This document shows positions 28,407-34,112 of a stretch of DNA of 64,000 nt, in pieces; within the stretch, counting starts at the first letter, position 1, and each line of letters opens with the position of its first letter. Position numbers and translations under genes: made by a program. A model generated the notes under the pieces. That model did not search any database. It saw only the letters and a list, made by a program, of their open reading frames with translations, and was not told the origin of the DNA. Origin of the DNA: Dehalococcoidia bacterium (GTDB lineage: Bacteria; Chloroflexota; Dehalococcoidia; DSTF01; JALHUB01); the NCBI GenBank assembly GCA_030018455.1, contig JASEFU010000006.1, positions 1 to 64,000 on the forward strand, read 5' to 3'.

Positions 28407-31220
28407 ATGAATAAAGGCGTCAAAAGGGCTAACCGGCTTTCGCTTCTCGCCGTGGCGGCGGCACTGTGCTGCGTTGCCGCGGGGCTCAGCGTCGTGTACT
28501 TTGCCCGCGCTGCTCCCCTCCTCACGACCGACAAAGAAGACTACTACTCCACCGAAGTCGTCACCGTCTCCGGCAGCGGCTTCTCCGCAAACACGCTCTA
28601 CGACATCCCTGTTATCCGGCCCGACGGCAGCATCGTCAAAGGCGATGGCTCGTTCGTTCCCGGCTGGGACACGGTCGAGAGCGACAACAACGGCGCCTTC
28701 ACCTACTACTATCAGCTCGACGGGATAACCGGCACCTACGAGGTGAGGGTCTACGATTCACCGTGGTCGGGAGACCTCGACGAGACCCCGATCGCGACTA
28801 CGACTTTCACGGACTGCGACATCCAGTTCACACAATGCCTCAACGACTCCGATAACAACGAGGCGGCCGATAGCTGCTATTGGAGCACGGGGGCGATAAA
28901 CGCCAACAACTCCGTCTACACGGAAGGCGATTCGGTGCCGCAGCGGCTGTTCCACAGAATAGAGTCGACGGGGACGCACACCATCCGCCTCGAATACGAT
29001 TTCAGCAAGTCGAACGTTTACGCATACGACTTCCTGAGCAGCGTCGACTACACGATGCCGCCGGGACCGGCCTACCTCAACGAGTGCGCCGATCGCCCCC
29101 CATTCGTTAGCTCCAGCACGTGCGCGAGCTTGTTCACACAGGGCCAGAGCCCCGTACCCTCCGATCCGTTTGACGCGGTCGCGCTGCGTGAGTACCCGGG
29201 CGTTCGCAACATCCGTCTGGGCTGTTCCCCGGCTTGCTCCGGAAGCGTCACCGTCTCTTTCCCCAGCCTTGACGGCGGTGACGATCCCGGCGAGTCGCAT
29301 CTGCCAGACAGCGATCCGGACTGCGAAGGCAACTGCGGCACCAGCAGCGTGAAGGTCGACATTACGTTCACAACTACTTCCCGCAACACGGTCGTCGGCC
29401 TCTGGTTTGGGGGCCACCTGGCAAGCGCAGGTGATCCCGATCCTTATGAATCGCCGCCGGATGGCTGGGGCTACGGACTGGGCGCCTCATCTGTATCGGG
29501 CGCCGTTATTCACATGCGGTACATCTCGCTGGACGGCGGGTCGGTCGGGACGCGTGACAACCAGATCCAGATCGGTGGAGTGCTGTGTCCCACCCCGACT
29601 CCGACTCCCACGCCCACGCGCACGCCGACGCACACTCCGACTAACACGTTCACGCCCACCGCGACGCCCACGAACACGCCGACCCGCACCTCTACACCAA
29701 CACCCACCGATACGCCGGTCCCGCTTACGCCCACGTTCACGTCGACGCCCACCAAGACCTTTACGCCCACACCGACAAAGACCGCCATTCCAACAGCGAC
29801 TCACACGTTCACGCCCACGCCTACCGATACGCCCGTGCCGCCCACGGCCACGTTCACGCCCACCGATACGCCTGTGCCGCCCACGGCCACGTTCACGCCT
29901 ACCGATACGCCTGTGCCGCCCACGGCCACGTTCACGCCTACCGATACGCCCGTGCCGCCCACGGCCACGTTCACACCGACACCGACAAAGACGTTCACAC
30001 CTACGCCGACTCACACGTTCACACCGACACCGACGAAGACCTTCACTCCGACGCCGACTCACACATCCACGCCGACGCCTACAAAGACGTTCACGGCGAC
30101 ACCGACCAACACGCCCGTCCCGCCGACTGCCACGTTCACCCCCACGCCCACTGATACATTCACGCCGACGCCTACAAAGACGTTCACGGCGACACCGACC
30201 AACACGCCCGTACCGCCGACTGCCACGCCTACGCCCACAGCGACTCACACGCTCACGCCTACCCCTACGGGAACGTACACACCGTTGCCAACGCCTACTC
30301 CAACATCCACGCCCGTCCCGCCCACGCCCACGCTTACGCGCACGCCGTCGCCCACCCCGACACGCACGCCGACGCCCGGCACAGTCACGCCTACACCGCC
30401 CGGCGTGAGGATGGAGAAGGACGCTAACGTGCTGGAGCCCGGGATCCAGACGGAGAACAACCTCTGGATCACAAAGAGCGGTTGCCTCTCCGCCGAGGAG
30501 GGCAAGGGCTGCCTCGTCATCGAGAAGTGGGTGTTCAACGCCTGGGACACTGATTCGCCGAACGACTCAGACTCGGAGCCGGAAGGGGTCGGCGCCTGGG
30601 AGGAGCAGATCAAGTTCGAGCACAAGATCCTGGCCGTGACGCCTGTGCCCAGCAACGAGTGGCTTGAAAGCGGGGGCCGGGTGGCCAACTGCACCGCCAC
30701 CGTCCTTACCGAGAACTGGATACTCACGGGTTGCGTCACCAAGGACGACCCGAGCGAGCCCGGCATCCAGCCCGGCCCCAACGGCGACGGGCTCATCGAG
30801 CGCATAATCATCGTGCCGCTCACCAACGACCTTATCTACCGTGACGGCTTCCGCCCGACGAAGGACAACGGTGTCATCACCGACATCATCGATGAGAACT
30901 GCGAGGTGACCGACGTTCTGGCGGAGCCGATCCCCGGCACGTTGCCCGGCGGCCTGACGCAGACCTGCGGCGACGCCCACATAACCGTCCGCATGCTCCA
31001 GGGCGACCTCGACCTCGACTGCGACGTGGACGTGGTGGACGACCAGGCGATAGCCTTCCGTTACGGCAGCTTCTTCGGCCTCGGCCTCTACGACCAGTGG
31101 TACGACCTGGAGCCGAAGTTCGTCGACTTCGATATCGACATCAAGGACATCCAGTTCGTCTTCGGGCGCAACGGCAGCACCTGCCAGGCGCCGATCCCCG
31201 ACGACCAGGCCTCGCCGTAG
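28407..31220 (+). CDS. Large secreted Thr/Pro-rich repeat protein with dockerin-like C-terminus
   Basis: 937 residues. A signal peptide (hydrophobic 14-36) leads into an Ig-like domain starting [20 protein letters not shown] Cys-containing domain to about residue 393 follows, then a low-complexity Thr/Pro stalk of about 270 residues (29589-30402) with motifs such as [13 protein letters not shown] and [11 protein letters not shown]. After the stalk is a globular domain ([18 protein letters not shown] onward). The last 85 residues contain two dockerin-like Ca-binding loops, one around [13 protein letters not shown] and one around [17 protein letters not shown]. It is probably a cell-surface or cell-wall protein with a possibly O-glycosylated stalk. 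It has its own strong promoter. Function unknown. Confidence 0.85.
29823..29978 (+). repeat. Four tandem 39-bp repeats in the Thr/Pro stalk
   Basis: Units beginning ACCGATACGCC at 29823, 29862, 29901 and 29940 differ at only a few third positions. Each encodes [13 protein letters not shown]-type 13-residue blocks. Near-identity at DNA level suggests recent expansion by slippage or unequal recombination, so stalk length may vary between strains. Looser relatives of the unit occur to about 30230. Confidence 0.9.
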
Positions 31221-33131: not shown

Positions 33132-33335
33132 GGGGTACGCTTCTGCGGGTTGAAACCCCCGGCAGGGGGCGGCGCTGCCGCCCGCGCTCGACGCCGCCCG
33201 CCGCCCTCGACGCGCCCTCGCCGTATTCGGGCGCGTCGCGTTCGGGCCGTCGCGTCCATCGGGCCCTGTTCGCCTCCGAGGTTCCAGGGGAATACGAGTC
33301 CGAAGAGGATTATGTTGTCTTCGATGAATTCCCTC

Positions 33336-33365
33336 TTGACAGGCGGCTTTCAGAACGTGTAAAGT
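33336..33365 (+). promoter_or_regulatory. Candidate promoter for the Tad pilus operon
   Basis: TTGACA at 33336-33341 and TAAAGT at 33360-33365 are separated by 18 bases. The predicted start near 33372 would give a leader of about 510 bases before flp, long enough to hold regulatory RNA structure. Nothing closer to flp looks better. Confidence 0.5.
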
Positions 33366-33518
33366 TCAAAACGATATCGTGCCTTTGGTGGCGGGCACGC
33401 GCAAGGGGAGGGAAACCCCGTCGACCTCTCTTTCGCGGCCGGACCGAAGCGAAAAGCGCGTTTCTGCGTTATACGTTTTGACGGGCAGTCTCAGCGCCGT
33501 CCTTGTTATCTGCAAAAC

Positions 33519-33558
33519 AAAAAAAGCCCCGCGCAGTGTCTGACGAGCCGGCGGGGCT
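33519..33558 (-). terminator. Canonical intrinsic terminator on the minus strand
   Basis: On the minus strand AGCCCCGC (33558-33551) pairs with GCGGGGCT (33532-33525), eight perfect pairs around an 18-base loop that can fold further, followed by a run of T (33525-33519) and more T. No protein gene lies upstream on that strand for many kilobases, so it most likely ends a small RNA. Confidence 0.7.
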
Positions 33559-33590
33559 AGGGCAACAGGAGCGGAGAGGCCCCCGGTTGC
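33519..33590 (-). ncRNA. Candidate small RNA of about 72 nt
   Basis: A minus-strand promoter (33597-33625) predicts a start near 33590, and a canonical terminator ends at 33519. The RNA would begin with a small GGTT-CGC-AACC hairpin, contain a pyrimidine-rich middle, and end in a GC stem with seven U. It is antisense to the long leader predicted for the pilus operon. No family recognised; the case rests on the promoter-terminator pair with no open frame between. Confidence 0.45.
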
Positions 33591-33596
33591 GAACCT

Positions 33597-33625
33597 ATTA
33601 TCGCATCCGCGCCTGCCTTCGACAA
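33597..33625 (-). promoter_or_regulatory. Minus-strand promoter for the candidate small RNA
   Basis: Reading the minus strand, TTGTCG (33625-33620) and GATAAT (33602-33597) are separated by exactly 17 bases. The -10 matches consensus at five positions, the -35 at four. Confidence 0.5.
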
Positions 33626-33765
33626 TCGGGGGAGACCCCCACGCGGCGAAGGCGCGCGCGGACCCGCCTCCGGAACGCATCGGCAAGCCCTATCAGCCAT
33701 CCGTCTCTCCTGTTCGCCCTCGAAGGGGGGTGAGGCGCCGCGACAAAGGAAGGACCCCGCAATCC

Positions 33766-33853
33766 GGCCCGACGTCGGGCCTGCCCGCCCTGCCTGCCGG
33801 CACGCAGGCGGTAGGCGGGCTTGCTCGCCGGTAGGCGAGCCTCAGAGGCGAGC
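33766..33853 (+). repeat. Cluster of GC palindromes in the flp leader
   Basis: A perfect 16-base palindrome GGCCCGACGTCGGGCC lies at 33766-33781. GCCCGCC (33783-33789) pairs with GGCGGGC (33814-33820), enclosing GCCTGC/GCAGGC. GCTCGCC (33823-33829) can pair with GGCGAGC at 33834-33840 or with a second copy at 33847-33853. The block ends 31 bases before the flp start codon. It is either a dispersed palindromic element or a leader with alternative folds. Confidence 0.6.
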
Positions 33854-33884
33854 TTAATTTAGTTCCGAAAGGGGAGACAAAGGA

Positions 33885-34112
33885 ATGCTCAACAGCCTAA
33901 GTGTCTACTGGATGGTCCTGAAGGCGAAGCTCGGCGGAGAGCGCGGCCAGGACCTGCTGGAATACGCCCTTATCGGGGGCGTTGTGGCTGTCGCCATCAT
34001 CGCGGTCGGCGCTGCCCTGAGCGGCTACGTGGGCACGATGTTTGACAAGATCGGCAGCTGTATCACGTGGCAGGACGACTGCGATATTTCTCTGCCTCTA
34101 GGTGGCGGCTAA
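33885..34112 (+). CDS. flp: Flp-type pilin
   Basis: 75 residues, with GGGGAGACAAAGG before the ATG. A short basic leader ends at Gly21, followed by QDLLEYALIGGVVAVAIIAV: the Flp prepilin cleavage pattern (Gly then xxxxEY) with Glu at +5 and Tyr at +6, then one hydrophobic helix. Two Cys (SCITWQDDC) in the short C-terminal tail may form a disulfide, and a glycine tail ends the protein. It would be the major subunit of the Tad pilus encoded downstream. The prepilin peptidase is not in the window. Confidence 0.9.
   Translation: MLNSLSVYWMVLKAKLGGERGQDLLEYALIGGVVAVAIIAVGAALSGYVGTMFDKIGSCITWQDDCDISLPLGGG

Follow-up and report, generated by a model that had tools for sequence, protein, structure and literature searches.

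Antisense RNAs have mostly been reported singly and are seldom conserved, and the phylum considered here, the Chloroflexota, is poorly studied and mostly uncultured. In plasmid antisense attenuators such as pT181, sense and antisense compete for a segment of the leader (PMC3753616). Clostridioides difficile has a c-di-GMP-II riboswitch before a pilin gene and many antisense RNAs, some of them on untranslated regions (PMC3649979). In antisense-acting riboswitches, antisense control is linked to a riboswitch (PMC9943018).

We analysed a stretch of 64,000 nucleotides from a Dehalococcoidia bacterium (contig JASEFU010000006.1, assembly GCA_030018455.1), hereafter the window, in which the leader of a Tad pilus operon is overlapped on the minus strand by a predicted small RNA (sRNA). 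Like the pT181-type attenuators (PMC3753616), this would be a short hairpin RNA with its own promoter, fully complementary to the leader that it overlaps, and it faces a leader with alternative pairings that antisense binding would change, namely those of segments B and C in the three flp leaders described below; copies of the alternative pairing segment are also found in a TasA-like group. Unlike those attenuators, the sRNA family is chromosomal and multicopy, it lies before surface-protein genes, and only some of its members visibly have a terminator switch. As in C. difficile, c-di-GMP-II riboswitches and, here, predicted cis-antisense RNAs occur at surface-protein genes, but the part of the published account bearing on these elements does not present the C. 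difficile RNAs as a single conserved family that follows the aptamer (PMC3649979). The link between antisense control and a riboswitch is shared with the antisense-acting riboswitches (PMC9943018), except that here it is the sense leader that carries the riboswitch, and no known aptamer matches the antisense RNA. What emerges is a new family of a known kind, the cis-antisense small RNAs, in an unusual recurrent setting: one RNA fold and its promoter are kept in the same position opposite the leaders of unrelated surface-protein genes, sometimes beside a c-di-GMP riboswitch. Our main reading, to which we give a probability of roughly 0.6, is that the window holds a noncoding sRNA gene of about 72 nt, antisense to the Tad leader, which belongs to a conserved family and most likely acts in cis.

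The Tad leader and the predicted antisense RNA

The features of the locus, in order of position, are the following.

33336-33365, plus strand: sense promoter of the Tad leader, TTGACA-18-TAAAGT, from a promoter scan
33372-33884, plus strand: predicted 5′ leader of the Tad operon, about 510 nt, placed from the promoter and the flp start
33480-33510, plus strand: weak hairpin resembling a sense terminator, GACGG..CCGTC CTTGTTATC, immediately ahead of the sRNA locus (dG -10.7)
33514-33558, minus strand: predicted intrinsic terminator of the sRNA, stem 33558-33525 plus tail, from sequence and fold
33517-33593, minus strand: predicted small RNA, covariance-model match 33593-33517, from covariation and G-U strand bias
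33558-33579, plus strand: sense segment B, complement of hairpin 1, TAGGGCAACAGGAGCGGAGAGG
33562-33590, minus strand: hairpin 1 of the sRNA, GCAAC-C-GGGGGC-CUCUCC-GCUCCU-GUUGC with a C-rich loop, from fold and covariation
33597-33625, minus strand: predicted sigma70-type promoter of the sRNA, TTGTCG-17-GATAAT with extended -10 TGC, from sequence, with an equivalent in about 26 homologues
33696-33721, plus strand: sense segment C, able to pair with B (GCCATCCGTCTCTCCTGTTCGCCCTC) and in part a repeat of the sRNA sequence, from pairing compared with shuffles
33885-34112, plus strand: flp, Flp/Fap pilin, first gene of the Tad operon (PF04964, E 3.5e-6, below the curated cut-off)

Downstream of flp lie genes for TadE, a TadE/G-like protein, RcpC/CpaB, a response regulator-ParA-type ATPase fusion, a TadA-type ATPase (T2SSE) and T2SSF, and the gene upstream of the leader encodes a VWA-FHA protein. 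The sense promoter is kept as TTGACA-17-TAAAGT in G001, a genome of the same family, so that transcription of the leader probably runs across the sRNA locus. Upstream of the VWA-FHA gene, 28407-31220 (plus strand) encodes an exported protein of 937 aa in which Thr-Pro repeats make up a long region.

On the minus strand, the -35 TTGTCG at 33625-33620 is followed, after a spacer of 17 bases, by the extended -10 TGCGATAAT at 33605-33597. The RNA is expected to start at about 33590, which is the 5′ end of hairpin 1, and to have a length of about 70-75 nt (~72); it would end at a terminator formed by the stem AGCCCCGC...GCGGGGCT at 33558-33525 and the tail TTTTTTTGTTTT at 33525-33514. The first-pass annotation of this DNA had pointed to a minus-strand promoter with 17-base spacing, an intrinsic terminator about 72 bases further on and no protein gene that could use the promoter. 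The coordinates of promoter and terminator hold, the latter by sequence and by fold, and the 106-aa minus-strand frame at 33686-33366 starts upstream of the promoter, which therefore could not serve it. Taken singly, the sequence of this locus contains 2 promoter-like sites where the scan expects 0.5, its fold z for the sRNA region is -2.4, and the sRNA terminator was missed by a terminator scan because of its long loop. The single-sequence signals are thus barely above chance, and it is the comparative evidence that lifts them far above it.

Distribution of the family and the genes that it faces

A DNA search of relatives gave a 43-bp match of 86% identity (33548-33590) in G005, a genome from another family of the same order, where it is also located just upstream of flp; the copy in G001 is more diverged and likewise lies upstream of flp. 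In all three loci the minus strand gives the same two hairpins, hairpin 1 having a common fold, and these are more stable than the plus-strand fold. The -10 reads GATAAT in the window, TATACT in G001 and GATACT in G005; a -35 is located 17 bases before it in the window (TTGTCG) and in G001 (TTGCTG), and G005 is weaker. The terminator stem is kept in the three sequences, whereas the U tract is strong in the window, broken in G001 (stem plus TTTGGTTTT) and lost in G005. Lack of conservation of both the terminator stem and the -10 in close relatives had been named beforehand as an argument against the RNA, and both are kept in G001 and G005; the covariance search that had been suggested likewise returned homologues opposite flp in the same family and order.

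Covariance models were built from the three flp leaders (R1, a small number of loop bases being cut out or set to N so that the alignment was usable), from 11 sequences (R2) and from 26 sequences (R3). With R1, strong matches within the order were confined to the three flp loci, moderate matches appeared elsewhere in the class, and the better of these were mostly upstream of, and antisense to, a gene encoding a signal peptide. R2 and R3 brought the family to about 26 credible members in the class Dehalococcoidia and added some from other phylum classes (G549, G472 and G419). The stem and the -10 recur in these roughly 26 loci, and a small RNA antisense to the Tad leader, as initially proposed, is the best reading. 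The terminator stem is present in all members and a U-rich tail in most, the U tract being poor in G005 and G024a. Several sRNA paralogues occur per genome, and the window's own genome carries a second member (G000:C5:69360-69429, minus strand; L130 2001-2070; L074 1501-1570), where the leader on the opposite strand belongs to a gene whose exported product has many Asp-Asp-Gly-Asp repeats. Weak matches in G357, G332, G256, G216, G312 and G045 were dropped, being without a promoter (log-odds -5.7 to 4.3). An exact-pattern search of genome contigs gave matches scattered over unrelated phyla, and the same search of viral contigs gave no match.

All 26 members lie upstream of, and antisense to, a gene whose product has a hydrophobic N-terminus (exported or membrane protein), against a background of 7/42 gene-like ORFs of the window, although the gene assigned to each member was chosen by eye, which flatters the 26/26 figure. 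The downstream proteins include Flp pilins, Peptidase_M73/camelysin-like proteins (of the TasA kind), LVIVD and PD40 propellers, and proteins without a Pfam family. Since the same RNA gene recurs opposite other surface-protein leaders, it looks like an undescribed family of cell-surface antisense regulators, and the sequence comparison presents it as a multicopy family tied to many surface-protein genes, with nothing special to pili. By sequence look only, the member in G419 (L157) departs from the usual exported proteins, the gene downstream of it being NusG/LoaP-like.

The sense leaders have features in common as well. A TTGACA-type sense promoter is found upstream of the element in most loci (mean 14.1 vs 8.9, sd 0.32), and in 18 of the 26 there is a sense intrinsic terminator upstream of it (6.9 expected from shuffles, at most 11), often ending 41-48 nt before the element; this terminator is weak in the window, and none was found in G001. 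From the promoter and the upstream terminator it follows that the sRNA would overlap a stretch of the leader that only read-through would produce. A c-di-GMP-II riboswitch is present in the sense leader of G149 and G035 only, its end lying 50 nt from the sRNA element; over 33132-33884 of the window the Rfam search gave no c-di-GMP-II riboswitch up to E 10.

Regarding novelty, which had been surmised from the start, no family of Rfam 15 matches the element at gathering score, and no description of such an antisense family was found in the open-access literature searched. Under permissive settings the Rfam matches were limited to NsiR1 (E 0.11) and sar (E 0.42). Among sRNA-like families, the minus strand came closest to sX13 of the Xanthomonadaceae (RF02232), which likewise has a C-rich hairpin and a terminator, but the score of 19.4 bits (E 0.29), where the gathering score is 50, is at chance level.

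Which strand encodes the predicted RNA

The region upstream of hairpin 1 is outside all covariance models, which makes a promoter test there independent of them. Nearly all 26 members have a sigma70 promoter at a fixed place, with TTG 17-18 nt before TANAAT and the -10 usually 6-8 nt from hairpin 1, so that transcription would start at the foot of this hairpin. The mean promoter log-odds over the 26 members is 11.65, compared with 2.78 in dinucleotide shuffles (sd of mean 0.63), and for the 15 members outside the R2 training set it is 12.69 against 3.23 (sd 0.84). Two marks of a cis-antisense sRNA gene are apparent from sequence and conservation: its own promoter opposite a region predicted to be transcribed, and a 3′ end defined by an intrinsic terminator, the U tract being weak in some members. 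Very probably, an sRNA gene with its own promoter and terminator is present.

One could also suppose that the element is conserved as a structure of the sense leader itself, such as the expression platform of a riboswitch, with the minus-strand promoter and terminator as by-products. The element does always fall within the leader of a downstream gene, a c-di-GMP-II aptamer is located just upstream of it at two loci, and some leaders have a sense terminator beyond it. However, the consensus stems contain 69 G-U against 9 A-C on the minus strand (p = 1.4e-12), which indicates that the minus strand is the RNA because the plus-strand equivalents would be mismatches; the minus strand is also the more stable fold in nearly all members, and a sense-leader element leaves the minus-strand TTG 17-18 nt before TANAAT unexplained. 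Covariation in the stems is 0.410 compared with 0.200 in shuffles and is well above both controls, with 13 pairs changed on both sides. The alignment (A10) was fitted to the structure of the model, so that the covariation and the G-U counts lean towards that structure, a bias of which the promoter test is free. Given the G-U bias and the promoter outside the models, a sense-strand motif was rejected as the main reading, and we regard it as improbable. The promoter, hairpins, terminator, strand and position of the predicted sRNA are established by sequence comparison; that it is made, that it acts in cis and that its effect is repression, as in plasmid antisense attenuation, we infer.

Mode of action

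An sRNA transcribed from the minus strand could instead act mainly in trans, its C-rich hairpin pairing with the ribosome-binding sites of several mRNAs. Several paralogues per genome and a hairpin-1 sequence common to unrelated loci speak for this, and the conservation of hairpin 1 among unrelated leaders does exceed what a purely cis-acting RNA needs. In G277a, G251b and G288b the sRNA pairs well with the ribosome-binding site of its own gene, but over 24 loci such own-site pairing is no better than pairing with other sites (permutation p = 0.11). Targeting of ribosome-binding sites is thus unsupported overall, and action mainly in trans seems unlikely. It could also be that minus-strand transcription itself matters rather than the RNA, through collision of polymerases with leader transcription, as the strong sense promoter and the sRNA promoter are convergent; a conserved, covarying RNA structure would then be superfluous, and this too appears improbable. 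Action of the sRNA on its own leader in cis remains the probable mode.

The target of the sRNA in cis would be the full-length leader arising from read-through of the upstream sense terminator. By pairing with segment B, for which sense and antisense would compete, the sRNA would prevent the long-range helix B:C, and loss of this helix may change whether the leader is continued, degraded or translated. Compared with shuffles, B:C pairing amounts to -27.9 kcal/mol in the window (p 0.02), -25.4 in G001 (p < 0.005) and -20.9 in G005 (p 0.065), and B and C have changed together between the window and G001. A segment C can be recognised in the flp and TasA-like groups alone, and most others have none. 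In G035, G138, G159 and G252 the repeat of part of the sRNA sits in the loop of a sense intrinsic terminator (exact-match p 0.010-0.025), and the excess of repeats over all 26 is modest (151 vs 139.3, sd 4.3), so that a B:C-type repeat holds for a subset. By eye, a sense terminator is located downstream of the antisense site in G035, G138, G159, G252, G149 and G024a, the window being without an evident one with a U tract. Generic element-leader duplex energies, uninformative because of the high G+C, were dropped and replaced by exact-match and windowed tests. By analogy with the plasmid systems, attenuation through B:C can be put forward tentatively.

More speculative still is the idea of a phylum-wide antisense sRNA family that gives leaders responding to signals, through c-di-GMP-II or other, unrecognised aptamers, an output module in common. 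Through competition with a helix inside the leader, these RNAs would set how strongly pili, fibres and other surface proteins are expressed. If confirmed, the family would provide a first handle on the control of pili and surface proteins in these bacteria, as well as a naturally repeated case of sense-antisense leader control.

Further observations on the leaders and genomes

Immediately after the sense promoter, a block TTGGTGGC...GCAAG..GGGGAGGGA.CCCC (window 33385-33437, plus strand) is conserved between the window and G001 (L055 leader), and in other members the leader is G-rich and structured, with a terminator at its end. Such conserved leader blocks, which are without an Rfam match, are possible candidates for unrecognised aptamers. 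Riboswitches of the c-di-GMP-II and c-di-GMP-II-GAG types lie before exported-protein genes, in sense leaders and 50 nt ahead of the sRNA locus (L126 1868-1951, plus strand, and L089 542-625, minus strand). A tRNA-Sec-like match (L117 1653-1741, minus strand) scores 41.1 vs 47 bits, below the Rfam gathering score. The class genomes G030, G083 and G111 have 19-27 reductive dehalogenase matches each, a gene content from which the class was taken to be Dehalococcoidia. Between the Tad leader and flp, a palindromic G+C-rich repeat (CCTGCCTGCCGGCACGCAGG and kin, window 33780-33853) is likely a dispersed repeat, with similar stretches in G038.
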